Below are positions 5,535 through 27,991 of a stretch of DNA of 32,506 nucleotides, one piece after another; within the stretch, counting starts at the first letter, position 1, and the number at the start of each line of letters is the position of its first letter. The stretch covers positions 1-32,506 of the forward strand of contig DAIDHM010000234.1 of NCBI GenBank assembly GCA_027459705.1, given 5' to 3'. The notes beneath the pieces were generated by a model. That model was not told the origin of the DNA. It saw only the letters and a program-made list of their open reading frames with translations, and did no database searches. Origin of the DNA: Ktedonobacteria bacterium. Lineage in GTDB: Bacteria > Chloroflexota > Ktedonobacteria > Ktedonobacterales > JACDGC01. Both the position numbers and the translations under genes were made by a program.

Positions 5535-8021
5535 TCAGCGCGCCAGCGAAGGCGTCGGCGGTGTTTCCGACGAGGGATCACTCGCCGATGCGACATAATC
5601 CGGCGCACGAAGTTGGCCCGGCCACCAGTTCCAGCGGCCCAGCAACAGGACCAGGCCTGGCACCAGCAGGCCGCGCACGACGAAGGTGTCAAGCAGGACG
5701 CCAACTGCCACGCAGACGCCAAATTGGTAGAGCAACGTCAGTGGCAAAGTGGTCAGCACGGCAAAGGTACCAGCGAGGATCAGTCCCGCCGATGTGATGA
5801 CACCGCCCGTATTCCCCACCGCCACCGGCACACCCGCGGCCAGGCCGCGCCGCGACGCCTCTTCGCGGACTCGACTCATCAGGAAGATGGTATAGTCAGC
5901 CCCCAGAGCGACGAGGAAGATGAAGGTGTAGAGCGGAATGGCATAGAAGATGCCATCCTGTCCCTGGATGCGCTGGAAGAGGAAGCTACAGACGCCAATC
6001 GCCGCGAAAAAGTTGAGCGTCACCGCCGCGAGCAGGTAGAGCGGCGCGACCAGGCTGCGCAGCAACAGCGCCAGCACCAACGCCACCAGCAGCAATACGG
6101 CCGGGACGATGATGTGGGTATCGTGATTATCGCCCGCCTGTGTATCGGCCAGCAGCGATGTCTGGCCGCCAATATGCACGTCAGCGGTCGTCGTGGCGTT
6201 TGGGACCGGACCATCCGTTGCGCCAAGTTGATTCGTGTTGACGGCGTTGGTGACCGCGGTCCGCAAGGTGGGGATGCGGTCAATCGCTGGCAAGGCGTAG
6301 GGATCGTCATCGAAGACCACCGAGAACTGCACGGTCGTGTTATCGGGCGAGATGTATTGTGTGCTGGCGGCATACGCCGCGATGATCGCCGCGGTCTGCG
6401 GATCGATCACCGGGCCGCCCGGCGCTGTCGGGCTGTTGCCTGTCCCGGAGCGGATCGCGTCCTTCAAAGACGCTGGCAGATTATTGAACGCAGCCTGCAG
6501 CGTCGCGGGGTCGATGGTCGGTGCCACGCCCGCCGGACGTGTGGGGCTATCGACCGTCACGACATGCGGCACTCGCGCGATCGCCGCCGTGATGGCATCA
6601 ATCTGTGCCAGGTGCTGATAGGCATCCGCGCTGCCGCCGTGCAGTTGCAGCAGGACGGTCGTCGGGGCCAGCGTACCGGCGGGGAAATGTTGTTGTAAGA
6701 CGTTATAGCCCGTCGTCGAATCTGTCGCCAGACGGAACGAGGTCAAGAAGTTGTAGCTGCGCTGAATGCCGAGATTGCCAGCAGCCAGGATCAACAGGAA
6801 AACCACACTGCCCACGACCGCGACAATCTGATTGGAGCGCCTGGCGGCGACCCAGGTCCCCAGGCGGCCCCAGAAGCCACGCGGCACCGCCGCAGTCAGG
6901 GTCTGGGGGTCAAAACTCGCGTCATATTTGGGGACGAATGGCCAGTAGGCGGCGCGCCCCAGCCAGGCCAGCAGGGCGGGGACGAGCGTCAGGCCACCAA
7001 TCAGCATGACCACCACCACCGCCGCCAGGGTCGGTCCCAGGGACGAGTACAGCGTGATGACCGCGAAGAGCAGCGTGAGCAAAGAGAGCACGACGGTCCC
7101 CGCGCTGGATGCGATCGCTTCGCCGACCGCCAGCATGGTCGTCTGCATCGCGCGATGTTTATCCTGCGTATGGCGCAGTTCTTCGCGGTACCGTGATGCG
7201 ATAAAAATGCAGTAGTCCGTACCGGCACCGAAGAGCAAGACGGTCGCGATCGAGCTCGCCTGCTGACTTACCGGAAACCAGCCACTGTGCGCGGCGAATC
7301 CCAGAAAGGCATTCGCAACCTGCATCACCAAACCCACCGCGAAGATGGGCAGCAACGCCAGGATCGGTGAGCGGTAGACAATCAGCAAGAGCACTAATAC
7401 CAGGACGACCGTCGCCAGGGTCAGGTCGAGATTGCCCGAGGTGAAGATCGCTACGGCATCGGCCGAGATACCCGCTGGGCCAGTCAGATAGGCGTGCATC
7501 GGCGTACCAGCGATGGCGGACTGCAGATAGGCGCGGATGGTTTTGATGGAAGCGGGAAGTTGGAGGTCGTTGGCGCCACCGGGAAAATTGACGATCATCG
7601 TCATGGTCGTCTTGTCTTGCGAGATCAGCTGGCTGGCTGCCTGGGGCACGGTGAAGATCGAGACGACGCCGCTGGCATCCTGAGGATGCGGAGGGTCCGT
7701 TCCCAGTTGTGGTGAATTGAGCCAATCGCTGACCTGCTTCGCGCGAGCGTTATCCGTCGCCGAGAGGCCCTGTGGGTCAGTAAAGACCAGGATGGCCGGA
7801 ACACCCCGGCTGGATGGGAATTCTTGCAGCAGCAGGCGCGTTGCGACCTGCGAATCGGCGCTATTGGGGACCTGTTGCGCATTGTTGTTGTAGTTATTCG
7901 CCAACTTGGGTGCGGCGACCGAGAGGACGCCGATGGCGATCACCCAGACGACCATCGTGACAAATTTGCCACGGCGCGATGCGCTGAAGTTGGTCAGTCC
8001 ATGCAGGAGACGCGTGAGCAC
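5535..8021 (-). CDS. MMPL/RND-superfamily exporter
   Basis: The product is 828 residues and starts with GTG at 8021; the ribosome-binding site is not clear, with GAGGAG rather distant. The two-fold MMPL architecture is clear: a first membrane helix (VTMVVWVIAIGVLSVAA), a large extracytoplasmic domain (about 35-185), helices 2-6 with the motif GTDYCIFIASRYREEL, a second extracytoplasmic domain (about 415-620), and helices 8-12 with the second copy GADYTIFLMSRVREEA. MMPL proteins export lipids, siderophores or drugs using the proton gradient; the substrate here is unknown. One palindromic-repeat copy is translated as TDGPVPNA in the second external domain. The gene lies downstream of a TetR gene and has its own operator-like palindrome, so induction by a TetR ligand is likely. 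The C-terminus is Ser/Pro-rich. Confidence 0.9.
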   Translation of the reverse strand: MLTRLLHGLTNFSASRRGKFVTMVVWVIAIGVLSVAAPKLANNYNNNAQQVPNSADSQVATRLLLQEFPSSRGVPAILVFTDPQGLSATDNARAKQVSDWLNSPQLGTDPPHPQDASGVVSIFTVPQAASQLISQDKTTMTMIVNFPGGANDLQLPASIKTIRAYLQSAIAGTPMHAYLTGPAGISADAVAIFTSGNLDLTLATVVLVLVLLLIVYRSPILALLPIFAVGLVMQVANAFLGFAAHSGWFPVSQQASSIATVLLFGAGTDYCIFIASRYREELRHTQDKHRAMQTTMLAVGEAIASSAGTVVLSLLTLLFAVITLYSSLGPTLAAVVVVMLIGGLTLVPALLAWLGRAAYWPFVPKYDASFDPQTLTAAVPRGFWGRLGTWVAARRSNQIVAVVGSVVFLLILAAGNLGIQRSYNFLTSFRLATDSTTGYNVLQQHFPAGTLAPTTVLLQLHGGSADAYQHLAQIDAITAAIARVPHVVTVDSPTRPAGVAPTIDPATLQAAFNNLPASLKDAIRSGTGNSPTAPGGPVIDPQTAAIIAAYAASTQYISPDNTTVQFSVVFDDDPYALPAIDRIPTLRTAVTNAVNTNQLGATDGPVPNATTTADVHIGGQTSLLADTQAGDNHDTHIIVPAVLLLVALVLALLLRSLVAPLYLLAAVTLNFFAAIGVCSFLFQRIQGQDGIFYAIPLYTFIFLVALGADYTIFLMSRVREEASRRGLAAGVPVAVGNTGGVITSAGLILAGTFAVLTTLPLTLLYQFGVCVAVGVLLDTFVVRGLLVPGLVLLLGRWNWWPGQLRAPDYVASASDPSSETPPTPSLAR

Positions 8022-8086
8022 GGATAGCAGTCGCTTTCTCTCCTCGTAACGAAGAGCATAACCACCGGAATAGCCGGTGCGGCTAT

Positions 8087-8106
8087 GTTACCGATTAGTC
8101 GGTAAC
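8087..8106. promoter_or_regulatory. TetR-type operator before mmpL
   Basis: The site is a perfect inverted repeat, GTTACCGA-TTAG-TCGGTAAC, in the 120-bp gap between tetR and mmpL. Its half-site resembles that of the palindrome at 9078-9095 (TTACC), so both are probably bound by the same regulator. Read on the minus strand, TTGTTG, 17 bases, TAATCG forms a possible promoter whose -10 lies within the palindrome. Confidence 0.72.
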
Positions 8107-8141
8107 CTACAATGCAACAAAAAAAATTGCGATGACAGGGT

Positions 8142-9053
8142 TCAGGGTATCTTTTCCGGTGGGACCGGACCATCCGGCGGGAGCGGACCATCCGCTGGCA
8201 CCGGACCATCCGGCGCTCTTGCGACCCCGTATAGAAAGATATCGAGCAAGGCGTCGATCATGCGGTGCATCAGCGCATCAACGTGGTCGGGTGGGAGCGG
8301 ACCTTCCGCTGGGACCGGACCAGCCGGCGCGCCGGAAGCCGGAAGGTCCGGTGCTGGTCCGGTGCCAGTCCGGTCCCGGTCCGGTGCTGGTCCGGTGCCA
8401 GTGGGAGCGGACCTTCCGCTGGGACCGGACCATCCGGCCGCGAAGAGTGGCACATGTGTCACGGCGGTCGGCTGGGAGAGCAACATGCAGAGTTGCAGAA
8501 AAGCAAAGGCCCTCACCGCGAGATCCCCAGCTGGACCGCCGGGACCGGACCATCCGGTCGCGCCAGGCGCGCGCGCTTCGCCGCTACGCACGCCGTCTTC
8601 CAACACCTGACGCAAGGGATCGAAGACGCTCGTGTGCCAGGCGAGGTTGAGTGCCGCCTGTTGTTCAGCAGTCAGCAGGATATATTCTTCGCGCATGAAG
8701 CGCATCATATCGAACGGTTGATCATACGTGAGATAGCGCATCATGCGGCGCAGTTTTTCCCGCATGGTGGTGGCTGGTCCACTCCCAGTCGTCTCGCCTT
8801 GAAAAGCCGTCCGCGCTAACTCGCGATAGTGATCTAACAGGCGCATGAGCACCGCAAAGAACAGTTCCTGCTTATTTTTGAAATGATGAAAGAGGGCGGT
8901 TTTGCTGACCCCCACCTGATCGGCGATGACCTGCAGGTTGATATGATCATAGCCCCCCGCGTGGTATAGATCCTCAGCGGCACGCAGGATACGTTCCCGC
9001 GTGTCCGTGAAGCGTCCATCAGGCGGATGGTCCACTCCCGGATGATCAGGCAT
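8142..9053 (-). CDS. TetR-family regulator with repeat-derived insertions
   Basis: The product is 303 residues, against about 190-220 for the family. The start at 9053 follows GGGGGGAG. The DNA-binding domain spans about 18-65, with the HTH in LQVIADQVGVSKTALFHHFK. The ligand domain is recognisable (MREEYILLTAEQQ, LRQVLEDGVRSGEA, HVDALMHRMIDALLDIFL). It is interrupted by stretches coming from the palindromic repeat: the N-terminus (GVDHPPDG), ATGWSGPGGPAGD before one helix, roughly 55 residues of Gly/Pro/Asp/Arg-rich sequence before the last helix, and a tail of DGPVP/DGPLP units. These fall between predicted helices, so the fold could survive. It probably represses itself and mmpL through the two palindromes. 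Confidence 0.9.
   Translation of the reverse strand: MPDHPGVDHPPDGRFTDTRERILRAAEDLYHAGGYDHINLQVIADQVGVSKTALFHHFKNKQELFFAVLMRLLDHYRELARTAFQGETTGSGPATTMREKLRRMMRYLTYDQPFDMMRFMREEYILLTAEQQAALNLAWHTSVFDPLRQVLEDGVRSGEARAPGATGWSGPGGPAGDLAVRAFAFLQLCMLLSQPTAVTHVPLFAAGWSGPSGRSAPTGTGPAPDRDRTGTGPAPDLPASGAPAGPVPAEGPLPPDHVDALMHRMIDALLDIFLYGVARAPDGPVPADGPLPPDGPVPPEKIP
8165..8557. repeat. Dense cluster of palindromic repeats inside tetR
   Basis: Nine copies fall within about 390 bp of the tetR 3' half: three in tandem at 8165-8213, paired copies at 8298-8327 and 8408-8437, an inverted copy at 8339-8351 and one at 8545-8557. Between 8351 and 8400 a degenerate array of GGTCCGGTGCCAGT/GGTCCGGTGCTG units adds more of the same composition. 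Tandem copies are exactly 18 bp apart, preserving the reading frame. This is the densest group in the window. Confidence 0.88.
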
Positions 9054-9077: not shown

Positions 9078-9107
9078 TTACCTACCGGTAGGTAAGTACC
9101 ACGTCAA
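9078..9107 (-). promoter_or_regulatory. tetR promoter with overlapping operator
   Basis: TTACCTACCGGTAGGTAA (9078-9095) is a perfect 18-base palindrome of the kind bound by TetR dimers. On the minus strand TTGACG (9107-9102), 17 bases and TAGGTA (9084-9079) form a promoter whose spacer and -10 are covered by the palindrome. This predicts direct autorepression. Confidence 0.78.
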
Positions 9108-12699: not shown

Positions 12700-13398
12700 C
12701 TATCTCCCTGCTGCCAGGTACGCGGCGTCGATCGCCGCGATCACCGCGCGCGTCGCGGTATAGGGATCGGCGGAATGGCCGATGGCGGAGATGATGGCGA
12801 CGCCCGTCGCACCAGCCGCTATGGGTTCCGCCAGATTGGTCGCGGTGATGCTGCCGATCGCGATCAGCGGCAACCGGAAGGTCCGTTGCTGCGCCGTCCG
12901 TGATGCCAGATCGCGCAGCAACGTGGTGCCGATCGCTGGCCCGGCATCCTGTTTGCTCGTGGTACCGTAGATGGGACCTACTCCGAGATAGTCCAACTGG
13001 TCGGTTTCGCGCAATGCGCGTTGCGCCTCTGCCTCCGTACCAGCTGACAGCCCAATAATCCTGGTTGGCCCAAGGAGTTGACGCGCGATGGTCGGGGGAA
13101 TGTCATCCTGGCCGATGTGGACGCCATCCGCCTCAGTCGCCAGCGCGACATCAATCCGATCGTTGATAATCAGGAGCGCCTGGAATTGTCTGGTGAGCTC
13201 GCGCAATTGTCGCCCCGCCTCAACCAGCGCGCTGGCCGAAGCCTGTTTATCGCGCAATTGGATGACCGTCGCGCCACCGCGCAGGGCGTTTTCGGCAATC
13301 ATGAATCCGTCGCAGGGCACCAGCACATGCAATCGCAATTGACGATTGGTCAGCCGTGGCTTGCGCGTGTCATCGTGTGTTGGCGGCATATCAGGCAT
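12700..13398 (-). CDS. thiE: Thiamine-phosphate synthase
   Basis: The product is 232 residues. ThiE joins hydroxymethylpyrimidine diphosphate and thiazole phosphate to thiamine phosphate in the cytosol. The TIM-barrel landmarks are present: GGATVIQLRDKQ, IINDRIDVALATEADGVHIG-QDD, IIGLSAGT, LGVGPIYGTTSKQDAG, LIAIGSIT and AGATGVAIISAI. The ATG at 13398 overlaps the end of thiM by eight bases. The residues QQRTFRLP just before LIAIGSI are encoded by a palindromic-repeat copy (12874-12885), placing an insertion directly next to a core strand. Another copy (12688-12698) overlaps the stop region. The catalytic landmarks look intact, so activity is likely. Confidence 0.94.
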   Translation of the reverse strand: MPDMPPTHDDTRKPRLTNRQLRLHVLVPCDGFMIAENALRGGATVIQLRDKQASASALVEAGRQLRELTRQFQALLIINDRIDVALATEADGVHIGQDDIPPTIARQLLGPTRIIGLSAGTEAEAQRALRETDQLDYLGVGPIYGTTSKQDAGPAIGTTLLRDLASRTAQQRTFRLPLIAIGSITATNLAEPIAAGATGVAIISAIGHSADPYTATRAVIAAIDAAYLAAGR

Positions 13399-14359: not shown

Positions 14360-15237
14360 CTGGCCTCCATCTGCCAGAAGTGATCGACGGGACCATGCCC
14401 ATGGCCCAGGCCAGGGGCATGCTGGATGGCGCCGGTGATGTAGCGCTTGGCGCCCTCCACCGCATCCACGAGCGGCAGACCACGCGCCAGCAGCGCGGTA
14501 ATCGCCGCCGAGAAGGTGCAACCCGTGCCGTGGGTATGGGGTGTCGCATAGCGTGGCGCCACCAGTTCATGCATGGTCTCGCCATCGAAAAGAATGTCAA
14601 GCGCCTGTGATGACGCGGATGGTCCGCTCCCAGCCCCATCTTCCTCCAGATGACCGCCTTTTATGACCACCGCGCGCGGCCCCAGAGCATGGATCGCGCG
14701 CGCAGCTGCCCGCATCTCCGCGATGGAGGTGATGGGCTGGCCAATCAGCACTGCGGCCTCGGGCAGGTTCGGCGTGACGACCTCCGCCAGCGGCAACAAG
14801 ACGGAGCGCAGGGTTGCGACCGCCTGAGGCTGCAGCAAGGCATCGCCACTCTTGGCTACCATGACCGGATCCACCACCAAGCGCAGACGCCACCGTCGGA
14901 CGTGCTCAGCGACCACCTCGATAATCGCCGGACTCGAAAGCATGCCGGTCTTGGCAACATCCACGCCAATGTCGCTGATCACGCTCTCGATCTGCGCCGC
15001 GATCAGGGAGGTGGGCAGTTCATACGCCGCCTGGACCCCAATCGTATTCTGCGCCGTGATGGCCGTGATAGCCGACATTCCATATGCGCCCAGCGCCGCG
15101 AACGTCTTGAGATCGGCCTGGATGCCAGCGCCGCCGCCCGAATCTGAACCCGCGATCGTCAACGCGCGCGCCGGATGGTCCGGCCCCACCGGCAATGGAC
15201 GTTGCGCGCGCGAGGGATCTGCTTCATATTGTGTCAT
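14356..15237 (-). CDS. thiD: Hydroxymethylpyrimidine (phosphate) kinase
   Basis: The product is 293 residues. The ATG at 15237 follows GGAGG with a 7-base gap, better than the in-frame ATG at 15252. ThiD phosphorylates hydroxymethylpyrimidine twice, giving the diphosphate used by ThiE. Motifs: ALTIAGSDSGGGAGIQADLK, DPVMVAKSGDALL, TPNLPEAAVLIG, VVIKGGHLEEDG and HTHGTGCTFSAAI (anion hole and catalytic Asp region). Two repeat copies are translated: PVGPDHPARA, which immediately precedes the first core strand, and GAGSGPSAS, in the loop after KGGHLEEDG. The C-terminus (HGHGPVDHFW) is typical. The stop overlaps the thiM start. Confidence 0.94.
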   Translation of the reverse strand: MTQYEADPSRAQRPLPVGPDHPARALTIAGSDSGGGAGIQADLKTFAALGAYGMSAITAITAQNTIGVQAAYELPTSLIAAQIESVISDIGVDVAKTGMLSSPAIIEVVAEHVRRWRLRLVVDPVMVAKSGDALLQPQAVATLRSVLLPLAEVVTPNLPEAAVLIGQPITSIAEMRAAARAIHALGPRAVVIKGGHLEEDGAGSGPSASSQALDILFDGETMHELVAPRYATPHTHGTGCTFSAAITALLARGLPLVDAVEGAKRYITGAIQHAPGLGHGHGPVDHFWQMEAR

Positions 15238-15254
15238 GACGATTTCCTCCATGC

Positions 15255-16898
15255 CTACGAGAGTCTGGTGTTGCCAGCTGCCTGGTCACCCGGCGACGCC
15301 GCGGAGTCGGAAGCCGGCGTCCGGAAGCCGGTCAGATCGGCGCCACGCAGTACGGCATCCGCCTGTCGCCCCTGGGACGGCATGCCTGACGCGAGCGCAT
15401 AATACACGAGCGCGCTGACGACTGCGCCGACGATGCCGCTGATATCCGCGCCTCCCAGCCAATGCGCGATCGGCCCCTGCCAGGGTTGACTCAGCCAGGG
15501 CAGATAAGCCGAGCCGATGCAGGGGATGGTCGCGGCGAATCCACAGGCCCATGCCAGCAGGCCGCGCCAGGCAAATCCCGACCGACGCTTGCCAGGCGCA
15601 GGCGCATGCGAATCGCTCCCACGACGCAAGAGGAAATAGTCGACGACTAAGACGGCGGCCCAGGCGGGCACCCACAGATAGGTGAGTAAGAGAAAATTGA
15701 TGTAGACCCCCAGAAAATTGTTGACCAGATCAGCATACGTCTGGGCGCGGGAAAATTGCGTCGCCAGGCCAATCCCCAGCACCAATATGCCCCCCAGGAG
15801 GCCGCAGACCAGCGCCGCCAGCCAGCGCCGCAACCCCACATCCATCGCCAACGCGACCAGACCAGCAGTATAGACATCGAAATAGTTGGCCCAGATCTCG
15901 CCAAGGACCACGAACAGCAGAAATGGGACGGTCAACCAGGGGGGAGCCGCGGCGGTTATCACACTCAACAGATCAGGGTTACCCGGATTGATCGTGTAGA
16001 GCGCGACCCCCAGAATGCCGAGCAGCGCGGTCGGGAGGCCGATCCCTACGCCAGACCACCAGGCCACGCGGCGCGCCGGTGTTTCCGCGGGCAGGTAGCG
16101 CGAATAGTCCGAAGCGAAGGGAATCCACGATGCGACCAACGCGTAGATGAAACTGCCACCGACGATCATCGCCGCGAGATGCGTGGGACCGGTGACGGTC
16201 GTCGCGAGATTCCAATGAATTTTCGGGAAGAGGGCAATGAAGAGGATCGCGCCAAACACCATGAAGACGATTGCGCCGTATTTCTCGAAGACATGGACGG
16301 TCTGGTGCCCGAAGATGGCCACGATAATCGAGAGGATCAACACCAGCGCGATGGCGCTCAAGGCGACGGGAGTCGATTTGGGCACGCCTGCCAGGCCCAA
16401 CAATTGCACCACAGCCCAGCCACCGATGACGCAGTCGACAGCAAACCAGCCGACGGCCATCAGGAAGGTGAAGAATGCGCCGATATACGCACCGCGATGT
16501 CCCAGCACCGCGCGCGAGAAGACCATCTGTGGCGTGCCACTCCGCACCCCGGTCGCGCTGATCGGCCCGTGCAGGATCGCGGCCAGACCCGCGCCGACGA
16601 GGATCGCGATCGCGCTATCCACCAGGCCCAGTTGGCCCGTACTCGCACCCACCGCGAGGGGGGCGCCTATCACCAGCGCGCCGGTCAAGAGCGAGACGTA
16701 ATTCGCCATCGCGCCCGCCCAGACCAGGCTCAACTCGCGCGCCACCCCATGACGTTCTGCCGTGGGGACAGGTTCCAGGCCGCGCCGCTCCACTTTCAAA
16801 AAATCGTCCGCGGCGACGCCGCGCACCCCGAACGCTGATGATGCATTGCTCGCTACTGGTTCGCTTCCGGGTGTATGGACATCACTGACATTGCTCAT
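15255..16898 (-). CDS. cytX: NCS1-family transporter CytX (hydroxymethylpyrimidine uptake)
   Basis: The product is 547 residues. The ATG at 16898 follows GAGAGGAG; in-frame codons further up run into the riboswitch leader and are not used. NCS1 permeases carry nucleobases with H+ or Na+. The protein has about twelve membrane helices. NCS1 landmarks include AGAMANYVSLLTGALVIG, GVRSGTPQMVFSRAVLG, WFAVDCVIGGW, ASWIPFASDYSRYLP and LGEIWANYFDVYTAGL. First place after a TPP riboswitch and ahead of thiD identifies it as the CytX subgroup, predicted to import hydroxymethylpyrimidine. The N-terminus (about 50 residues) and the C-terminus are hydrophilic. Unlike the genes downstream it carries no palindromic repeat. 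The gap to thiD is 17 bp. Confidence 0.9.
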   Translation of the reverse strand: MSNVSDVHTPGSEPVASNASSAFGVRGVAADDFLKVERRGLEPVPTAERHGVARELSLVWAGAMANYVSLLTGALVIGAPLAVGASTGQLGLVDSAIAILVGAGLAAILHGPISATGVRSGTPQMVFSRAVLGHRGAYIGAFFTFLMAVGWFAVDCVIGGWAVVQLLGLAGVPKSTPVALSAIALVLILSIIVAIFGHQTVHVFEKYGAIVFMVFGAILFIALFPKIHWNLATTVTGPTHLAAMIVGGSFIYALVASWIPFASDYSRYLPAETPARRVAWWSGVGIGLPTALLGILGVALYTINPGNPDLLSVITAAAPPWLTVPFLLFVVLGEIWANYFDVYTAGLVALAMDVGLRRWLAALVCGLLGGILVLGIGLATQFSRAQTYADLVNNFLGVYINFLLLTYLWVPAWAAVLVVDYFLLRRGSDSHAPAPGKRRSGFAWRGLLAWACGFAATIPCIGSAYLPWLSQPWQGPIAHWLGGADISGIVGAVVSALVYYALASGMPSQGRQADAVLRGADLTGFRTPASDSAASPGDQAAGNTRLS

Positions 16899-17061
16899 GC
16901 CCCGCTCCTCTCGCCGGTTCACACCGGTCGGTGTTTCGGGGATCGTGGGCTTCGCGCCGCGCACGCCATCGGCCGCGGACTCACCAGCAAGGGCAAACAC
17001 ACTGCTCGCCGCCGCGGTGGGTCCGCCAGCACATCGAGCGAGGGGGGGTGAAGCAATCACG

Positions 17062-17148
17062 CTCCCTACACTGGCATTACCCAGATCAGGTTCAATCGGT
17101 CGACGGGGGAATAGCCCGCCCTCTCAGCCCGGTTCGCCCGAGCTCCCG
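17062..17148 (-). ncRNA. TPP riboswitch
   Basis: On the minus strand the THI-box is nearly complete. It starts with CGGGAGCTCGGG, then CGGGCTGAGAGGGCGGGC (the GAGAGG pyrimidine-sensing part), then TTGAACCTGATCTGGGTAAT and GCCAGTGTAGGGAG (the diphosphate-sensing part and P1 closing strand). It lies 163 bp upstream of cytX. No T-rich terminator is visible between it and the gene, so control of translation or an unrecognised terminator is more likely than a classical intrinsic terminator. TPP binding should switch off the whole salvage operon. Confidence 0.96.
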
Positions 17149-17191
17149 TTCGATAGGTACCAGTGCGGAACACGTTGGCTCAACGCAATGC

Positions 17192-17211
17192 CTATCGTGG
17201 TAGTACGATAG
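17192..17211. promoter_or_regulatory. Inverted repeat upstream of the TPP riboswitch
   Basis: CTATCGT and ACGATAG (7-base arms) flank GGTAGT. The site lies about 45 bp upstream of the riboswitch, where the operon promoter should be. On the minus strand TTGCAA, 18 bases, TATCGT is a possible promoter whose -10 falls in this repeat. It may be an operator; the evidence is the symmetry alone. Confidence 0.4.
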
Positions 17212-17245
17212 CACATCGTCAAGCGCGATTGCAAGGAAGCACAGG

Positions 17246-17282
17246 CTCGGCAGGTCGTCGTCGCATGTGCGTAACTGCCGAG
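17246..17282 (-). terminator. Possible terminator or hairpin after the GH3 gene
   Basis: CTCGGCAG (17246-17253) pairs with CTGCCGAG (17275-17282) around a 21-base loop, 12 bp past the GH3 stop. There is no T-run, so it is at best a weak or factor-dependent terminator separating GH3 from the thiamine operon. Confidence 0.35.
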
Positions 17283-17294
17283 CACCGACGCAGG

Positions 17295-18629
17295 TTAGGC
17301 GGCATCCACGGGGCGCAGATCAGCGACTGGCGCAGTGCCAAGCGCGGCGAAGGCATGCGCGGTGGTGGTCGGAGGCATCAACGGCAGCAGACCTCGCTTG
17401 ATTTTCAGCATGAGAATACGTCGTACGGAGAGTTGAATGCGATCCATCGTCAGTTGTCCGGATTGTAATGCCTGTTTGATCGCATCGACCATCTCTTTGC
17501 CCTGCGCATACCCTGCTGCCCCCAGGAGCATGTCACATCCAGCTTGCAGCGCCATCACACCGGCAACGCCAAGGTCATATTTGGCATAGACAAAGACGCC
17601 TTCCATATATAACGCATCAGTGACCACGACTCCCTGGTACCCCAGTTGCGTGCGGAGTAGCCCATCGATGATCTTCGGCGAGAGTTCCGCCGGCAATGTG
17701 GGATCGACGGCTGGCAGCAAGAGATCCGTGGTCATAATCATCCCTGGGGGATCATTGCCAGCGAGCAGGGCTTTGTAGGGGGCAAGATCGATCGCGTTGA
17801 GTTGCGCGACCGTGCGATCGATGGTTGGGAGGCTTTTATGCGGATCGGTCCGCGCGATCCCTAATCCGGGGAAATGTTTGATCGTGCCGATGACTCCATT
17901 CTCCTGGAGTCCATCCAGCCAGGCCCCCGCCATCTTGGTCACGACATCCGGGGTGGTGCCGAAAGCGCGTTGATTATCAGGGCCACTGTACAGGGCGCGA
18001 TTACTCTCCACATCCACAACTGGCCCGAGATCCGTGTTGATCCCGAGCGCGAGCATCTGTTTGGCGGTCAATGCCCCTTGGTTATACGCATACTGCGCAT
18101 TGTTCGTCAGACCAATATCCTGGGCTGAGGGATGCGGTCCATAGATACCGGAGAGCCGATCGACCGGTCCGCCTTCCTGGTCAGTCGAAACGAGTAGCGG
18201 GATCTTCGAGTCGTTCTGTGATCCATTGTCAAAAGTCAACGCTTGCTGTGTCGAACCGAGCTGGTCATAACCGAATTGCGGCGAGTGGTACAGAATGGTT
18301 GCCCCGGGCTGTAATTGTTGGATCATCTGCTGGGAGTCTGTGCCCGGTCCCGAATATTGCTCGCTGGTATATTCCATCATGAGTAATTGGCCAATCTGCT
18401 GATCCAGGGACATCTTGGCGATATACGCGTTAGCGCCCTGTTCCAGAGCGGCGTCGGGCAGGCGAATCCACGCCGCGCGCGGGGCGCCAGGGGCGCCATC
18501 GAGGCGCGTATTTGCGGGTATCCGGGCCGATCCCTGCTTGCCACAACCAGCAAAGATGATCAATGTCAGTGATACGAACCACAGACTACGCCGCCAGCCA
18601 CTCTCGCGTTCAGGTTGCGTCGCTGCCAT
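17295..18629 (-). CDS. GH3 lipoprotein, beta-N-acetylhexosaminidase (NagZ-like)
   Basis: The product is 444 residues; the start follows GGAGG. A signal segment ends in a lipobox (IIFAGC, Cys29), so it is a surface lipoprotein. The GH3 domain has STDQEGGPVDRL (about 148-159, substrate binding), LGINTDLGPVVDV, the KHFPG loop at 251-255, the Asp-x-His dyad in TDPH (D262, H264) and the nucleophile Asp338 in VVVTDALYMEGV. NagZ-type enzymes remove N-acetylglucosamine from peptidoglycan fragments or chitin-like sugars. The usual KHFPGHG reads KHFPGLG here: the second His is replaced by Leu, while the catalytic Asp-His dyad and nucleophile are kept. The enzyme is probably active. The 281-bp gap upstream (18630-18910) holds the ribosome-binding site and no other gene I can support. 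Confidence 0.9.
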   Translation of the reverse strand: MAATQPERESGWRRSLWFVSLTLIIFAGCGKQGSARIPANTRLDGAPGAPRAAWIRLPDAALEQGANAYIAKMSLDQQIGQLLMMEYTSEQYSGPGTDSQQMIQQLQPGATILYHSPQFGYDQLGSTQQALTFDNGSQNDSKIPLLVSTDQEGGPVDRLSGIYGPHPSAQDIGLTNNAQYAYNQGALTAKQMLALGINTDLGPVVDVESNRALYSGPDNQRAFGTTPDVVTKMAGAWLDGLQENGVIGTIKHFPGLGIARTDPHKSLPTIDRTVAQLNAIDLAPYKALLAGNDPPGMIMTTDLLLPAVDPTLPAELSPKIIDGLLRTQLGYQGVVVTDALYMEGVFVYAKYDLGVAGVMALQAGCDMLLGAAGYAQGKEMVDAIKQALQSGQLTMDRIQLSVRRILMLKIKRGLLPLMPPTTTAHAFAALGTAPVADLRPVDAA

Positions 18630-18910
18630 GAGTCATCCTCCACCAGCATGAGCGAGGTCATGCGTTTGTCGTGCTTGCAGTACGTCTGGCAGAATGCCCT
18701 CTGATCGATTGACCAGGGTGACTGCGGTACACAACATGCAAAAAAATGAGTATCCCGATATACGGCTTTCTCGGCTGGTATTGTACGCAATCTGGCAAGG
18801 TTTGGCTAGTGCCTTAGGACTCTTGCCGACCTTCCACAAAGACCAGACCACGACCGCTCGCTACAATACGCGGTCATGGTCTGAGAATCTCGCATGTTTG
18901 CAGGTCGTTG

Positions 18911-19846
18911 CTATGGTCGTTGCCCATAGGCAATGTAGACGGGATAGACGATATGGTAGCGTGGATCATAGATCTCGGCTTCCGCCTGGCGGATCGTCTC
19001 ATCAATTTCGCGTTGATCGATATGAAAGATCTGCGCGATAATCGGCGCGGCTCCCAGAAATCCCGTCAGGACGTCCATCGCTAACATCTGGCCGACCCTG
19101 TCACTGTTCACACCAATCGGGATAGCCGCCGATTGCTCGGTCACACCCGTTGCTCCCGCCGCGCGCAGATACTCGCCGATCTGACTGCCTAATGCGACAT
19201 CCACGCCGCGCAGGGCGAGGCCCTGACTGGACCAATTGACAATCTTTGTCAGCGCAGGTCCGCCATCGCGCGGGAGGTTGGCCTCCACCAGCTCAATCCA
19301 GCCACCTGCAGCCGTCACGCGTAGCAATTCACGGACGACCTCTGGCCATTTCGTCACGGGCATGGCCGAGTAGATCAGGCGCATATGCACAAAATCAAAG
19401 GATGCATCGGGAAAGGGCAGCGGTTCCAGGAGGTTCCCCTGCACAAAAGTATAGGCTTGCGGCTGGCCATGCTCCCGGACTGTCAGGGGCGTCGTGACAT
19501 CGATCCCGGTGATCGCAACCTCACCGAGCGATGCTTTGATGTCTTCAGCCCAACGCCCCGTCCCGCTGGCCGCGTCCAGAATACGTGCTGGTCGTTGAAT
19601 CGGGGCGAAAACATGTTTTCCAAAATGCGTAAAAAACGCCGTATGCTGGAGATTCAGGCGGTGTGCCTCGCGTTCGTCGTTGGGCACCATATAGTGACTT
19701 TCGCCGGTAGCGACGGTCTCACGGCCAGGGACATGCACGGAAGTCTGAGCACTGGGCACGGAGGCCGGGTTGCCTGTGGCGGTATTCGCTGCAAGAACGC
19801 TCGCGGTCTTGCTTGGTTTGCGTCGCAGCCAGGAAAACCAGGTCAT
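18911..19846 (-). CDS. Class I SAM-dependent methyltransferase
   Basis: The product is 311 residues from the ATG at 19846, with GAGGAG eight bases upstream. Motif I is ILDAASGTGRWAEDI, the acidic residue after strand 2 is in ITGIDVTTP, and motif post-II and III parts are VQGNLLEPLPFPDASFDFVH and GGWIELVEANLPRDGGP. The fold is complete; the substrate is unknown (small molecule, lipid or quinone are all possible). It follows a paralogue with the same layout, including the shared segments HMFAPIQ/HVFAPIQ, DGGPAL and a C-terminal YxVxTPIYIAxGQR/YPVYIAYGQR motif. The N-terminus (about 60 residues) is basic then Ser/Thr-rich and precedes the fold. Confidence 0.85.
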   Translation of the reverse strand: MTWFSWLRRKPSKTASVLAANTATGNPASVPSAQTSVHVPGRETVATGESHYMVPNDEREAHRLNLQHTAFFTHFGKHVFAPIQRPARILDAASGTGRWAEDIKASLGEVAITGIDVTTPLTVREHGQPQAYTFVQGNLLEPLPFPDASFDFVHMRLIYSAMPVTKWPEVVRELLRVTAAGGWIELVEANLPRDGGPALTKIVNWSSQGLALRGVDVALGSQIGEYLRAAGATGVTEQSAAIPIGVNSDRVGQMLAMDVLTGFLGAAPIIAQIFHIDQREIDETIRQAEAEIYDPRYHIVYPVYIAYGQRP

Positions 19847-19882
19847 ACATATTCTCCTCAAGACGTACTCAACGTACAACAG

Positions 19883-19910
19883 AAAAAGGCCGGGCTGTCG
19901 CGGCGACAGC
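19883..19910 (-). terminator. Hairpin with short T-run between the two methyltransferase genes
   Basis: On the minus strand GCTGTCG-CCG-CGACAGC (19910-19894) is followed after six bases by TTTTT (19887-19883). It could partly terminate transcription after the upstream methyltransferase, which ends at 19960. Confidence 0.4.
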
Positions 19911-19959
19911 GTTGATCGCGCATCGATCGCGGATAATTCGGCAGCCTGCTACAGACAGT

Positions 19960-20859
19960 TTACACCCTTTGTCCACAGGCAATATAGATAGGTGTGATAA
20001 CAGAATACCGGTCACTCGCGATCTCCAGTTCGGCAGCGCGCAACGTTGCTTCAATCTGCGCTTCTTCCAGCAACAGTGCCTGCCGCATCGCGGTGATGCC
20101 CTGACGGTATGCGATGATCACCATCTTTGCCAGCATCTGTCCTTCATTGCCACCTGAGGGGCCGATCGGTAAATCTTCCTCACGAAGCTCTATATTGGTG
20201 GCGCCGGCTTCGCGCAAAAAATGCGCAATGTGATGCGCGTATGAGGCATCAACATCGCGGAGCGCGAATACTTGATTCGCCCATGCTTCGAGTTGTGCCA
20301 GTGCCGGACCACCATCATGTGGCAGATAAGCTTCCACCAATTCGATCCAGCCTCCGGGACTGGTCACGCGCACTAATTCACCCACGACGAGCGGCCATAG
20401 TTGGACGGGGACGACGGAAAACAGAAACCGCATATGCACGTAATCGAAGGAGGCCTCCTGGAATGGCAACGGATCCAGGATATTGCCGTGAACAAAGGTA
20501 TATCCAGCAGGTTGGCTCTGATCGATGACCCCCATCGGCATGGAGATATCCATCCCGGTGATCTGTGCCGACGGAAAAAGCGCATGCATCTCTTCCGCCC
20601 ACGCCCCCGTACCGCAGCCTGCATCCAGGATATGCGCGGGTTGCTGGATCGGCGCGAACATATGCGTTCCAAAAAATGCGCGCATGGCCACATGTTGCTG
20701 ATCCTGGCTTCGGGCATCAGCAATATCAGATGGTGGTGAGGAATGGCTTATCCCGCTTGTGGTTATATCACGTTTCGTTTCATAGAGTGGACGAGATTCC
20801 TTGATGATAGGGTGCGAAGAAAGAGGGCCAGGTTTGCGCCTCCAGGGAAATAATGGCAT
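19960..20859 (-). CDS. Class I SAM-dependent methyltransferase (paralogue)
   Basis: The product is 299 residues. Motif I is ILDAGCGTGAWAEEM, strand 2 ends in ITGMDISMP, and VHGNILDPLPFQEASFDYVH and GGWIELVEAYLPHDGGP follow. It is clearly the paralogue of the gene at 18911-19846, with closest similarity in the catalytic core and near the C-terminus. The short basic N-terminus (MPLFPWRRKPG) resembles the other copy (MTWFSWLRRKPS). It is divergent from the response-regulator gene across a 258-bp gap. A shared product pathway with that two-component pair is possible but not shown. GGAG lies about 11 bases before the start. Confidence 0.85.
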   Translation of the reverse strand: MPLFPWRRKPGPLSSHPIIKESRPLYETKRDITTSGISHSSPPSDIADARSQDQQHVAMRAFFGTHMFAPIQQPAHILDAGCGTGAWAEEMHALFPSAQITGMDISMPMGVIDQSQPAGYTFVHGNILDPLPFQEASFDYVHMRFLFSVVPVQLWPLVVGELVRVTSPGGWIELVEAYLPHDGGPALAQLEAWANQVFALRDVDASYAHHIAHFLREAGATNIELREEDLPIGPSGGNEGQMLAKMVIIAYRQGITAMRQALLLEEAQIEATLRAAELEIASDRYSVITPIYIACGQRV

Positions 20860-21117
20860 TGGCGTGCCGCTCCTTCACTTTTGAACCCAGATTCCAGCCC
20901 GCCGAACCACCCCCACCTTAGTGACCGCACGCTCCATATTGTAGCAGCCAGGGCAATGAAGGAACAATCCATATCCTGAACCTGCCCGGACATACATGGG
21001 AATTGCCATAACGCATTGGACACGTACACACTCCATATGTTACGCTGGGCGCGGGTACCGTATGCTCCTTTGGTACCTGGACGTGGGTTGTTCGCGCGGG
21101 AAAGGACGCAGTACAGT

Positions 21118-21558
21118 ATGTCTTCCACCATGCCGCCACTGAAGATTTTGATTGTTGATGACAACCCTGAATTGCTCGATGTGTTCGCTCATGGATTGCC
21201 GCTACTGGGCGATTTTACGGTGTTTACCGCAGAAGATGGGTCCAGCGGCCTTGAAGCCTGTTACCAGCATCGACCAGATTGTGTCGTCGTCGACATCAGG
21301 ATGCCGGGACTGAATGGCCAACAACTTGTCAAAACCTTGCGTGGTGATCCAGCGACCGCGCAGACCCCGATCATAGTCCTGACCGCGTTGCCGCATGACC
21401 AGGCTGAATTTAGCAGCTTTGCCGCGGGAACCGATGTCTTCGTGATGAAGCCGCTGGTCCCGCGCGAACTCGTCGAGGCTATCAAGATGGCGCTGTTCGT
21501 CGATGACGAAGAACGAGCTCAGCGTCTACGATTGCTGGTTGAGGAGGGCGACGAATGA
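21118..21558 (+). CDS. Single-domain response regulator
   Basis: The product is 146 residues from the ATG at 21118; an ATG at 21130 is also possible. It is a lone receiver domain: acidic pair D14-D15 (ILIVDDNPE), phospho-acceptor D59 (VVVDIRMPGLNG), T89 (IIVLTAL) and K111 (FVMKPLVPREL). There is no output domain, only about 20 further residues. It therefore acts through protein contacts, CheY/Spo0F-like. Its stop overlaps the start of the kinase gene by four bases, so they are translationally coupled and form a cognate pair. The output partner is not identified. Confidence 0.92.
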   Translation: MSSTMPPLKILIVDDNPELLDVFAHGLPLLGDFTVFTAEDGSSGLEACYQHRPDCVVVDIRMPGLNGQQLVKTLRGDPATAQTPIIVLTALPHDQAEFSSFAAGTDVFVMKPLVPRELVEAIKMALFVDDEERAQRLRLLVEEGDE

Positions 21559-22646
21559 GCACGGTCGATTCAGCCGTTAGCGCCTACACGGCGTTGCACC
21601 GCAATCACCCGTACGAACAAACCTATCAGGTCGCCATGCGGGATCTACGCACGCTGCGTTTCGTTGCCACTTTGCCCGCGGGTGTCGCGACGGGTGGAGC
21701 ATTAGGGCTGTTGCTGGTGACGCTCGCGCGTCCCCACCAGGCCAGTGGGTCAGAATTTTGGGTAATGCTCCTCTGGGGTGCGTGGGTGTTGGCCGCGCTT
21801 TGCGGTGTGGCGGCCGGCGTGTCATGGCGAACATCACACAACCTGATGACGCGGATGACCGCGCTCCGAACCCAGTATGATATCGCTGTGCAGATTGATG
21901 CATTGAAAGATCAGTTCATTGCTTCGGTCAACCATGAACTGCGCAATCCCATCATGGCGATGATGGGCTATCTCGATATCATCGATATCAGCCTCGTTCA
22001 GAGCAAGCTAGACCTTGTCGGCGGCTACGTCACGCGCGCCGTGAACGCTGGTTATCGGCTACGTGAGTTGATCAACAGTATTTTGGATACGAGTCGCGAA
22101 GATCAAACTGCCAGCAATTTTGTTCCCACGACGGTGAATGTGCGCGACGCCCTCGACGCGGCGCTGATGTTGCTCAATCCCAAATTGAGCGAGGATTTGC
22201 AGACAGCATTAACCATACGATTGCCCGACGACCTCACCATCTGGGGTGATGCGGTCCGCTTGCGACGTATCATCGCTAATTTGCTCTCGAATGCCGTCAA
22301 GTACTCTCCAGCGGGCGCTCCAGTAGAATTCTCGGCGTCATTGATCCCGATTCCGGGCAAAAGTCGCAAGGAAACCACGCAATACCTGGTCGAGATGATC
22401 GTGCGCGATTATGGGTTTGGCATCCCCCCGAACCAGATTTCCTTGCTTTTCAACCGCTTCGTCCGCCTTCCCCGTGATCTCACCTCCCGGATCATTGGCA
22501 ATGGGTTGGGGTTGCACCTGTGTAAGGTGCTGGCTGAGGCGATGGATGGCGCAATCTGGGTGGAGAGTAATGGGATTGTAGGTGATGGATCCACTTTTCA
22601 TGTGCTGCTCCCGACACCCCCAACGCCTGTAATGCTTCCTTCTTGA
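21555..22646 (+). CDS. Membrane sensor histidine kinase
   Basis: The product is 363 residues. Two membrane helices (about 37-58 and 68-90) are joined by a very short loop, so there is hardly any external sensor domain; sensing may be within the membrane or cytosolic. The H-box has His127 (DQFIASVNHELRNPIMAMMG). The ATPase domain has N-box IIANLLSNAVKYSPAG, G1 DYGFGIPP, F-box LFNRFVRLPRD and G2 GNGLGLHLCKVLAE. The HisKA and HATPase parts are complete. It overlaps the regulator gene (ATGA) and should phosphorylate that receiver. The stop is followed by a 183-bp gap containing the nrdJ promoter. Confidence 0.93.
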   Translation: MSTVDSAVSAYTALHRNHPYEQTYQVAMRDLRTLRFVATLPAGVATGGALGLLLVTLARPHQASGSEFWVMLLWGAWVLAALCGVAAGVSWRTSHNLMTRMTALRTQYDIAVQIDALKDQFIASVNHELRNPIMAMMGYLDIIDISLVQSKLDLVGGYVTRAVNAGYRLRELINSILDTSREDQTASNFVPTTVNVRDALDAALMLLNPKLSEDLQTALTIRLPDDLTIWGDAVRLRRIIANLLSNAVKYSPAGAPVEFSASLIPIPGKSRKETTQYLVEMIVRDYGFGIPPNQISLLFNRFVRLPRDLTSRIIGNGLGLHLCKVLAEAMDGAIWVESNGIVGDGSTFHVLLPTPPTPVMLPS

Positions 22647-22703
22647 TGTCGCGCTGACGACCGGGCTAGGCCTGATGTACCACCACATTTAGGGAATTTG
22701 TCC

Positions 22704-22732
22704 TTGCATATCACTACATATTGTGTTATGGT
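22704..22732 (+). promoter_or_regulatory. nrdJ promoter
   Basis: TTGCAT (22704-22709), 17 bases, TATGGT (22727-22732), with TGT directly before the -10 (extended -10). It is about 98 bp upstream of the GTG start. I see no cobalamin riboswitch and no convincing NrdR box in the leader. Confidence 0.55.
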
Positions 22733-22829
22733 ATCTCTCGTGGTCGCGTTCTCGGGGCAGGCAGATCAAGCAATCCGAGCGCTGTGGTGGCCCTCAGTTC
22801 CGTGAATATACCTGGTTGGAGATGACGAA

Positions 22830-25259
22830 GTGAACGATGTACAGATAGAGCAGGTAGCCCCGGACTCGCCGGAAGTGACACAGCATGGCACGTGGTCTGA
22901 ATCAGCAGTGCGTGTTTTGAAGGAACGCTATCTGATGAAAAATGATCGCGGCGAACCGATCGAAACACCCGATGAGTTGTGCTGGCGGGTGGGTCGTGCC
23001 ATCGCGGCGGCGGAAGCGATCAATTCTGCTAAATCCCCGGCAGAGATTGAAGCAGTGGCGGCGCGCTATGCTGACCTGATGTTGAGCCGACGGTTTATGC
23101 CAAACTCGCCGACCCTGGCAAACGCGGGTAAGGGGAACAACATGCAACTCTCCGCCTGTTTTGTGTTGCCAGTACCGGATGATCTGGCGGGGATCTTCGA
23201 GACTATCAAACATGTGGCACTGGTCCAGAAGAGTGGCGGTGGCACGGGGATGTCGTTCAGCCGCCTGCGGCCAAAAGATAGTATTGTTTCCTCAACGAAA
23301 GGCGTTGCCTCAGGTCCGGTCAGTTTCATGCGTGTCTTCGATGCGGCAACGGAAGGCATTCGCCAGGGTGGCATGCGCCGCGGCGCCAACATGGGGATTC
23401 TGCGCGTCGATCATCCGGACATCGAGGAATTCATCGATTGCAAGCGCACGGGTGGCATTACGAACTTCAATATCTCTGTCGCGGTTACAGATTCTTTTAT
23501 GGACGCCCTCCAGCGCGACGGGAACTATGATCTCATCGATCCCCACACGCAGGAGAAAGTGCGCAGCGTCAAAGCCCGCCAGATCTTTGACAAAATCATC
23601 GCGGCCGCCTGGGCCTCGGGTGATCCCGGCCTGGTCTTCCTGGACCGCGCGAATCACTCGACCGCCAATCCCACGCCCGAGATTGAACAACTCGAAGCGA
23701 CCAATCCATGTGGCGAGCAATTTTTAGGGCCTTATGACGCCTGCAATCTTGGATCTATCAATCTTGGCCTCTTTGTCCATGAGGGCGAAGTCGATTGGCG
23801 CGGACTCGAAGCGACGACGCGTGACTGTGTCCGCTTCCTGGACGATGTCATTGATGTCAATCCCTTCCCATTGGAAGAGATCCGTCAGCATGTCCATGCC
23901 AACCGTCGCATTGGCCTTGGGGTGATGGGCTGGGCTGATATGCTCTTCAAGTTGGGAACACGGTACGATAGCCCTGAGGCGATCGATCTTGGTGAGCGCA
24001 TCATGCGCGCCATCCAACACTGGGCAAATGAAGAGACTGAGCAGCTCGCTACCGAGCGCGGCTCTTTCCCGAACTGGGATCGCAGCATTTACAAGAACGG
24101 GCCGCAACGCCGCAATGCGACCACCACTACGGTTGCGCCCACAGGCACGATCTGTATCATCGCGGACTGCTCCTCGGGCATCGAGCCGATCTTCGCGGTC
24201 GCCTTTCAACATCGGGTAAAACAACCGGATGGCAATTATCGGGTGCTGGAATTCGTCAATCCGATCTTTGTCACAGCATTGGAAGCTAGCGATATCGCTG
24301 ATAAAGCCGGGGTGTTGCACTGGGTCAAGGAGCATGGCAGCATGCATGGCCATCCCGCGGCGGACCACCCGGCGCTACGCGCCTTTGTCACCGCGCATGA
24401 GATCGCCCCCGAGTGGCATATTCGCATGCAAGCCGCCTTTCAGAAAGGTGTGCAGAACAGCATCAGCAAGACTATCAACCTGCCCAATAGCGCGACGCCA
24501 GCAGAAGTCGAAGCTGCGTACCTGATGGCCTGGGATCTAGGATGCCTGGGCATCACGGTCTTCCGCGATGGCTGCAAAGGCGAGCAGGTGCTGAATGTTG
24601 GCGTCAAACAAGCAGAACCCACACCCCCGGTCGCTCCCGCGGTGGCGGAACCAGCCCCCGTACCGACCTTGCGTCGCCATCATTACACTCGCGGGGTCAA
24701 GGATCGTCCCGAGGTCATGCGCGGCTATACTCGCCAGGTCCGGGCGCCTGAAGGCAAGGTCAATGTGACGCTCAACGACGACGAGGATGGCCTGTTGGAA
24801 CTCTTCGTCACCGTGGGGAAAGCGGGCAGTGATGTGGCGGCGCTCGCCGAAGCGCTGGGCCGTCTCATCTCACTGCACCTGCGCGTCGAGAGCCCGCTCA
24901 GCCAAAATGACCGGGCGCGCGCCATCGCCGAACAACTGCGCGGCATCGGCGGTAGCTCTTCCATTGGCTTTGGCCCTGATCGCGTCAGATCGTTGCCAGA
25001 TGCCGTCGCTCGCGCGGTCGCTTTGCATCTGGACCGCGATGATGATATCACAGCTCCCCAGGGGCCAGCCCTGCGCGATTCCCAGGATCATGGCCACGCC
25101 AATGGACGGAGCAACGGCAAGGCGCATGCAAGCTCTGAGGTGACAGGTGACCGCCTCCTCAAAGTAACCGGAAACTTCTGTCCACAATGTGGATCGAATA
25201 CCCTCGTCTATGAAGAAGGCTGCAAAAAATGCCTGGGCTGTGGCCATAGCGAGTGCTGA
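22830..25259 (+). CDS. nrdJ: Class II (adenosylcobalamin) ribonucleotide reductase
   Basis: The product is 809 residues with a GTG start at 22830, preceded by TTGGAG with an eight-base gap. It converts ribonucleotides to deoxyribonucleotides using a B12-derived radical and needs no oxygen. Landmarks: MPNSPTLANAGKGNNMQLSA with the first active-site Cys, the SGGGTGMSFSRLRP loop, TNPCGEQFLGPYDACNLGSI with NPCGEQ and NLGSINL, APTGTICIIADCSSGIEPIF, and the C-terminal TSCPD domain (about 640-730). The end is a zinc-ribbon-like tail, CPQCG...CKKCLGCGHSEC, typical of bacterial NrdJ. There is no obvious ATP cone at the N-terminus. A linker at about 590-620 is Pro/Ala-rich. A strong intrinsic terminator follows. 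Confidence 0.95.
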   Translation: MNDVQIEQVAPDSPEVTQHGTWSESAVRVLKERYLMKNDRGEPIETPDELCWRVGRAIAAAEAINSAKSPAEIEAVAARYADLMLSRRFMPNSPTLANAGKGNNMQLSACFVLPVPDDLAGIFETIKHVALVQKSGGGTGMSFSRLRPKDSIVSSTKGVASGPVSFMRVFDAATEGIRQGGMRRGANMGILRVDHPDIEEFIDCKRTGGITNFNISVAVTDSFMDALQRDGNYDLIDPHTQEKVRSVKARQIFDKIIAAAWASGDPGLVFLDRANHSTANPTPEIEQLEATNPCGEQFLGPYDACNLGSINLGLFVHEGEVDWRGLEATTRDCVRFLDDVIDVNPFPLEEIRQHVHANRRIGLGVMGWADMLFKLGTRYDSPEAIDLGERIMRAIQHWANEETEQLATERGSFPNWDRSIYKNGPQRRNATTTTVAPTGTICIIADCSSGIEPIFAVAFQHRVKQPDGNYRVLEFVNPIFVTALEASDIADKAGVLHWVKEHGSMHGHPAADHPALRAFVTAHEIAPEWHIRMQAAFQKGVQNSISKTINLPNSATPAEVEAAYLMAWDLGCLGITVFRDGCKGEQVLNVGVKQAEPTPPVAPAVAEPAPVPTLRRHHYTRGVKDRPEVMRGYTRQVRAPEGKVNVTLNDDEDGLLELFVTVGKAGSDVAALAEALGRLISLHLRVESPLSQNDRARAIAEQLRGIGGSSSIGFGPDRVRSLPDAVARAVALHLDRDDDITAPQGPALRDSQDHGHANGRSNGKAHASSEVTGDRLLKVTGNFCPQCGSNTLVYEEGCKKCLGCGHSEC

Positions 25260-25274
25260 TGCCCTGCCTACACC

Positions 25275-25322
25275 AGGCAGAAGGGAGCGTCGCGTTTCAC
25301 GCGGCGCTCCCTTCTGCCTTTA
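25275..25322 (+). terminator. Intrinsic terminator after nrdJ
   Basis: AGGCAGAAGGGAGCG pairs with CGCTCCCTTCTGCCT (arms 15 bases) across a short loop, followed by TTTAT. It begins 15 bp after the nrdJ stop. Confidence 0.9.
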
Positions 25323-25637
25323 TGATGGATATGCTTGATCGAGATCCATCAGACAAGTCAATGATTTTTTGCTAAAAATCGTATGGTTGATATATGAAGG
25401 GGTATTCTTCCCCAACACGGGCGGTGTTGACCTATCCAGCAGTGTGAGGGACTGACAACGAGATGACCGTCAACAATCCTGATCTCTGTATCTTCGTGTG
25501 AAGAATCTCACAGACAGGGCTGGTGAGTCGGATGCTACAATGATTATATCGCATGGGCAGCCAGTCAAAGTAAACCCAACGAAGCTGTTTTTTCGTGAGC
25601 AGCGTTGCGCTTTTTAGCCATCGAGAGGGGGGTGAGC
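25323..25637. other. Intergenic region with no supported gene
   Basis: About 315 bp between the nrdJ terminator and the next gene. It is AT-richer than its flanks. A TACAAT (25536-25541) could be the -10 for the next gene, but no convincing -35 stands 17 bases upstream. A strong GAGGGGGG ribosome-binding site ends the region. I see no RNA gene. Confidence 0.5.
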
Positions 25638-26270: not shown

Positions 26271-26387
26271 AGGAACCGCACATTGGCAATGGTGATCAGT
26301 GGTTCACAGTCCAAATCAGGACGTCGACATGTTCAACTTTGCGTATGACGCCGGTCTGGACTCATCTCAGTTGGCTTTACCAGAGCT

Positions 26388-27248: not shown

Positions 27249-27477
27249 CACATTGCCTTCCTTACTCACACATGCTCGCGAGGAACATGCATTCTCCGGC
27301 GGATCACAACCGCGCGGAACCGACGACAGCGCCGGATACCCACATTTTACCCCATAACCTGCCCACATTGCTATCCGCAGGGCATTCATACCGCTGCCTA
27401 AGGTGTGACTCCGCGAGATTTTTAGCCGCACTAAAAGGACATTCTCCATACAAACCTTATGCTGATAGGATTTTTGA

Positions 27478-27493
27478 ATATTGGCGCCAATAT
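27478..27493. promoter_or_regulatory. 16-base palindrome ATATTGGCGCCAATAT
   Basis: A perfect palindrome centred on GGCGCC, about 230 bp before the start of the zinc-finger gene and about 620 bp before the sigma-factor gene. Perfect 16-base symmetry in an AT-rich stretch suggests a binding site for a dimeric regulator. No partner is known. Confidence 0.4.
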
Positions 27494-27982: not shown

Positions 27983-27991
27983 TGGTATACT
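27983..27991 (+). promoter_or_regulatory. Extended -10 promoter of the sigma-factor gene
   Basis: TGG followed by TATACT (27986-27991), about 120 bp before the start codon. No good -35 is visible at 17 bases, consistent with an extended -10 promoter. Confidence 0.5.

Follow-up and report, generated by a model that had tools for sequence, protein, structure and literature searches.

The open reading frame at 8142-9053 of the window, the whole 32,506-nucleotide stretch of Ktedonobacteria DNA analysed here, raises the question of how a TetR-family regulator came to be much longer than its relatives, and what the added sequence is.

An enlarged TetR-family regulator

The original prediction described this frame as a TetR regulator about 100 residues too long, and the comparison with homologues bears this out. 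Pfam TetR_N (PF00440) matches residues 22-68 (E 5.7e-13, 48.9 bits against a cut-off of 24). In the same order, seven homologues (L009-L015) measure 203-229 aa, as read from their loci with start codons that we picked, and set against 303 aa this gives an excess of 74-100 residues in the window protein. The nearest is 62% identical across residues 11-162. All seven lack the loops of the window protein, with gaps at residues 88-93 (6 aa), ~163-176 (13 aa) and ~193-254 (large) and in the tail; a homologue family with the same loops but without repeat DNA, which would have argued against a repeat origin, was thus looked for and not found (7/7).

An AlphaFold2 model, computed from a seven-row alignment of the window protein and six homologues (L012 omitted), predicts nine helices, at residues 13-33, 40-47, 51-57, 61-85, 97-110, 116-126, 129-157, 173-191 and 255-275. 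Mean pLDDT is 71, with values below 50 at 1-10, 88-91, 197-246, 280-293 and 300-303. The top Foldseek matches are TetR regulators, and the model has the all-helical TetR fold. Very probably, then, this is an otherwise normal regulator of the TetR family, and a dispersed 18-bp hairpin repeat has invaded its gene repeatedly.

Eleven repeat copies scoring at least 12 bits lie in the TetR frame (Table 1), the highest number among 92 copy-bearing genes. They cover 198 of its 912 bases, or 242 (about 81 codons) when the 11-bp array is counted, in line with the earlier claim that the excess is nearly all repeat-derived; the repeat itself stands far above reversed-sequence controls (see below). The excess had been placed at the N-terminus, before two C-terminal helices and in the tail. 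The last two locations hold; the N-terminal copy brings no net gain, and the six-residue insert between helices 4 and 5 was absent from the predicted sites. That the insertions avoid the HTH and the helix cores is upheld by the model: all 11 copies lie outside the helices, and 0 of the 66 copy residues fall among its 155 helical residues. Helices 8 and 9, the dimer interface of TetR proteins, have the large inserts on their flanks, and the change in dimerisation or ligand response suggested in the original prediction is conceivable. The regulator is presumably still functional.

Together these comparisons strongly suggest that the TetR protein has become about a third longer through inserted 18-letter hairpin repeats, typically worth six amino acids each, in its inter-helix loops. 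A regulator can evidently grow by about a third in length without gaining a new domain. The TetR regulators found beside MMPL genes in G016, G020 and G026 share with it the TetR_N domain, the nine-helix fold, the adjoining MMPL gene and palindromic candidate operators, whereas the window protein carries 74-100 extra residues, all of them in loops and the tail.

Table 1. Repeat units, host genes and candidate operators in the window.
Feature	Position	Strand	Remarks
MMPL transporter gene	5535-8021	-	828 aa; two units, 6-residue insert each (106-111, 602-607)
18-bp unit in MMPL gene	6202-6219	+	residues 602-607
18-bp unit in MMPL gene	7687-7704	-	residues 106-111
Imperfect palindrome, candidate operator	8084-8109		between tetR and MMPL gene; putative function
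TetR-family regulator gene, enlarged by repeat insertions	8142-9053	-	303 aa
Three tandem 18-bp units (8161-8178, 8179-8196, 8197-8214)	8161-8214	+	C-terminal tail, residues 280-297
Two tandem 18-bp units	8293-8328	+	residues 242-253, insert between helices 8 and 9
Single 18-bp unit, opposite orientation	8338-8355	-	residues 233-238
Five-copy array, 11-bp period	8345-8399		related sequence GGTCCGGTGCC
Two tandem 18-bp units	8403-8438	+	residues 206-217
Single 18-bp unit	8541-8558	+	residues 166-171, inside 13-residue insert before helix 8
Single diverged 18-bp unit	8769-8786	-	residues ~88-95, helices 4-5, 6-residue net insert
Single 18-bp unit, N-terminal arm	9022-9039	-	residues 5-10, no net gain vs homologues
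Perfect 9+9 palindrome TTACCTACC/GGTAGGTAA, candidate operator	9078-9095		upstream of tetR; putative function
18-bp unit in thiE	12873-12890	-	at 5- to 6-residue insert
18-bp unit in thiD	14614-14631	-	within 11-residue insert 202-212

The 18-bp unit and its abundance

The 134 solitary copies define a conserved block of 18 bp, GGSASCGGACCWTCCGSY, laid out as a 5' GGSA tag, a 5-bp stem (SCGGA/TCCGS) and a CCW loop. Stem pair -2:10 alternates between C-G and G-C and pair 2:6 between A-T and G-C, beyond independence and with Watson-Crick pairing kept; this covariation may come from a few subfamilies rather than from many independent events. Single copies in the window, for example GGCAGTGGACCTTCCACC, retain the stem despite changes on both sides. 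Arrays of related sequence with periods of 11 bp and 7 bp (TTCCGCC) occur at 8345-8399 and in the flanks of copies at L059 and L062, and the sum 11+7=18 suggests that the unit may be rearranged in modules. Two ideas about the unit were discarded. Its freedom from stops in all six frames is not a special adaptation: in tandem form, 58% of random 18-mers with a comparable GC content have no stop in any of the six frames either. The unit also belongs to no known RNA family in Rfam, where a search at gathering thresholds yielded a TPP riboswitch in another part of the window and nothing else.

This MAG contains 157 instances of the exact core. Among 399 other genomes of the phylum, 22 have it once each and the rest have none; the counts in the five other genomes of the same family are 1, 0, 0, 0 and 0. 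Within the searched part of the phylum, the repeat is therefore a high-copy family peculiar to this genome. With up to two mismatches allowed, the genome contains GGACCGGACCATCCGG 246 times and the reversed pattern 9 times; in the 604,623-base sample described below, raw matches at 12 bits number 337 against 19 in reversed sequence. Searches of plasmids with a 54-nt tandem query and of viral contigs with the tandem pattern gave no match, and a search of the open-access literature returned no report of this 18-bp repeat.

Copies were counted in 604,623 bases, comprising the window, 20 blind stretches, picked by contig number without reference to the repeat, and 20 more picked for their hits. 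This sample holds 336 non-overlapping copies of at least 12 bits. The blind stretches contribute 38 copies in 285,245 bases, which scales to roughly 600 genome-wide. Density is patchy: eight of the 20 blind stretches have no copy and one has 13, and within the window 41 of the 42 copies lie between 3774 and 15187, leaving a single weak copy in 15188-32506. This breadth of spread, with most sampled copies genic, goes beyond what was seen in the original prediction.

The sampled copies form 264 runs, of which 214 are single units and 50 have more than one; 72 pairs of same-strand neighbours form tandems of period 18, against 6 neighbours on opposite strands less than or equal to 60 bp apart. The arrays, with periods of 18, 11 and 7 bp, and the 50 multi-unit runs could be read as local replication slippage that expanded short GC-rich stretches gene by gene, with no dispersal between loci. 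Such a process would have to yield the same 18-mer family in 92 of 472 called genes and in intergenic DNA, in both orientations, whereas most runs are single units and single units are missing from homologues. We consider slippage alone highly improbable.

Insertions of six residues

Where homologues allow the comparison, a single unit most often adds six residues cleanly and in frame. Of the 8 internal single-copy sites with homologues, 5 have a net insertion of exactly six residues, a count that omits multi-copy sites, the copies near the N-termini of TetR and ThiD, and genes without a homologue comparison; the other three sites are those in TetR (13), ThiD (11) and ThiE (5 or 6). ABC-transporter homologues were too distant for a clean gap test and were excluded from the insertion lengths. 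Both MMPL copies are six-residue insertions relative to 8/8 homologues, two of which are shorter still at the second site. The same holds for TetR residues 88-93 (7/7 homologues) and for residues 158-163 and 430-435 of a chorismate-binding enzyme (L069:1693-3390; 13/13). In ThiD, residues 202-212 form an 11-residue insertion relative to 13/13 homologues and one of 9-10 residues relative to solved chains (best 3 of 26), while the ThiE insertion measures six residues against 1xi3 and five against two other chains (best 3 of 12). The insertion junctions in this MAG are known at the protein level only, from homologue gaps.

A genome-wide site for protein binding or processing, for instance a nucleoid or segregation motif retained for its role at the DNA level, would also be short, palindromic, present in high copy in genes and spacers, and found in both orientations. 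The repeat, by contrast, arrives as whole 18-bp insertions and not as point changes in existing sequence; its patchy distribution (from none to 13 copies in a blind stretch) and its absence from relatives likewise weigh against this explanation, which we regard as improbable.

Position in genes, reading frame and divergence

Our own simple codon-usage caller gave 472 genes (82% coding). By these calls, 204 of the 336 sampled copies lie in genes, 128 are intergenic and 4 cross a gene edge, in both orientations. Intergenic DNA is over-represented about twofold among copies, yet the majority are coding. The six frames are used 52, 56, 40, 41, 9 and 6 times (chi-square p 3e-13): the two Arg-rich frames are depleted (15/204) and the other four are used about equally. 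The commonest frames encode the Gly/Pro-rich peptides GTGPSG, APDHPA, AGWSGA and PDGPVP. Coding and intergenic copies have diverged alike (mean 1.55 vs 1.54 mismatches), and third codon positions in coding copies show no excess of mismatches (permutation p 0.33). This pattern agrees with a DNA element whose copies remain where proteins tolerate them.

The Gly/Pro-rich peptides are suited to loops, as would be expected of a selected module, for instance flexible Pro/Gly linkers that tune TetR dimerisation or ligand response. The units nevertheless encode four different peptides from both strands, even within TetR, 128 of 336 copies lie between genes, and codon position imposes no constraint; selection for the peptide is very improbable. 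For a tolerated DNA element, the genome amounts to a natural insertion scan in which the same six-codon insert reveals tolerant protein loops and frames.

Relation to known palindromic repeats

Among known elements, the repeat comes closest to the small mobile palindromes of the REP/RPE class. It resembles REPs, as described in the portions available of PMC3733652, PMC2817692 and PMC8266576, in being a short 5'-tagged palindrome that is present in hundreds of copies and is tandem or clustered; a 5-bp stem and 157 exact cores qualify it as a short high-copy palindrome. In the same portions, REPs within ORFs are recorded for Opitutus terrae and Rickettsia conorii, and a REP with a 5-bp stem for Marinomonas (Mb). 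Some Pseudomonas REPs start with TGTGGGAGCGGG, close to TGGGAGCGGA of this repeat (PMC2817692, in part).

It differs from the REPs of these partial accounts in its length (18 bp vs the usual 20-50), in its GGSA tag in place of GTAG, in being mostly genic and in forming head-to-tail tandems instead of inverted pairs. GTAGGAGCGG occurs 0 times in the 604,623 sampled bases, 128 of 336 copies are intergenic against 204 genic, and the 6 opposite-strand neighbours against 72 same-strand 18-bp pairs give no sign of BIME-like inverted pairing. Since neither the GTAG tag nor an intergenic bias nor a linked RAYT was found, we describe the repeat as REP-like in its working and do not class it as a REP.

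With RPEs, as the available text of PMC2229807 describes them, it shares palindromic DNA and tolerated in-frame insertion in conserved protein genes, the latter observed here directly as in-frame insertions. The likeness is one of description only, and the RPE cited by coordinates in that text spans 146 bp, against 18 bp and six residues for this unit. Intragenic REPs and RPEs are on record (PMC3733652 and PMC2229807, each in part), so the kind is already known; the variant looks new in its size, tag, gene load and host.

Mode of spread

We propose that a single-stranded hairpin with its 5' tag would, as an 18-nt unit, be copied or transferred without duplicating its target site, either by a hairpin-recognising strand-transfer enzyme (TnpA_REP/IS200-like) or by template switching during replication. 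After arrival, the unit would grow locally into arrays of 18-bp period. Copies would persist where six added residues in a loop do no harm, and would therefore be neutral passengers and not selected peptides. That units of the repeat were inserted into the genes we hold with considerable confidence. The enzyme route by itself, strand transfer of the REP kind, we give somewhat less than an even chance, the remainder lying with template switching or another route.

A target-duplication signal was sought at shifts of 17, 18 and 19, and none was found. The dinucleotide CT stands directly 5' of 37 of the 134 solitary copies, against a background of 5%; CT is the dinucleotide cut by E. coli TnpA_REP, according to the available part of PMC8266576. 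A tag and hairpin, no target duplication and a 5' CT would together resemble TnpA_REP and IS200/IS605 usage as given there.

No RAYT gene linked to the repeat was found among the eight Y1_Tnp (PF01797) matches in this MAG, which is 95% complete and fragmented. The matches are IS200/IS605-like or fragments; six of their loci were scanned, and none has a copy of at least 12 bits. Three Y1_Tnp proteins fell under the RAYT cut-off or gave no score. A role as linked movers for this genome's IS200/IS605 TnpA genes is unsupported. Two full-length IS200/IS605-like TnpA matches (L053, L054) are each followed by a tnpB-like start, and the one at L054 has an internal TGA. The repeat bears on the minimum size of a mobile palindrome and on whether REP-like spread needs a RAYT.

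The same 18-mer in rumen Clostridiales

Two rumen Clostridiales MAGs contain the exact tandem 18-mer; no other genome_contigs record matched, in a search that may omit records very near the window's own. In RUG14645 (L156-L185) it sits within a MITE-like repeat, in 0 to 4 tandem units; the MITE core matches 49 places, of which 30 were fetched and 29 displayed for comparison. An empty (L177) and a filled (L172) MITE differ by exactly 18 bp with CCG on both sides, and the flanking CCG at L172 is possibly a 3-bp duplication or microhomology. RUG13043 has four 18-bp units in a row, in a stretch read as open in one frame.

The Clostridiales occurrence may be a chance or convergent match, since TGGGAGCGG also starts some Pseudomonas REPs (PMC2817692, in the part available). 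A bolder possibility, which we think rather unlikely, is that the 18-nt hairpin is perhaps among the smallest mobile DNA units described, advancing in codon-neutral six-residue steps, settling in more genic than spacer sites, and occurring in two phyla, in this Chloroflexota-like MAG and in rumen Clostridiales, since its sequence would be recognised by a strand-transfer activity that is conserved or horizontally shared.

Gene neighbourhood

The MMPL gene lies 3' of the TetR gene on the same strand, an arrangement common to the homologues in G016, G020 and G026. TTACC/GGTAA half-sites occur in both candidate operators (Table 1), and L009 has GTTACT/AGTAAC between its TetR and MMPL genes. Elsewhere in the window, the TPP riboswitch (Rfam RF00059, 59.8 bits) at 17046-17159 on the reverse strand lies upstream of permease, thiD, thiM-like and thiE genes; an ABC/CbiQ pair comes after these. 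A tandem repeat of 138-bp period occupies 4-264, at the start of a gene for a CHAT-domain protein.
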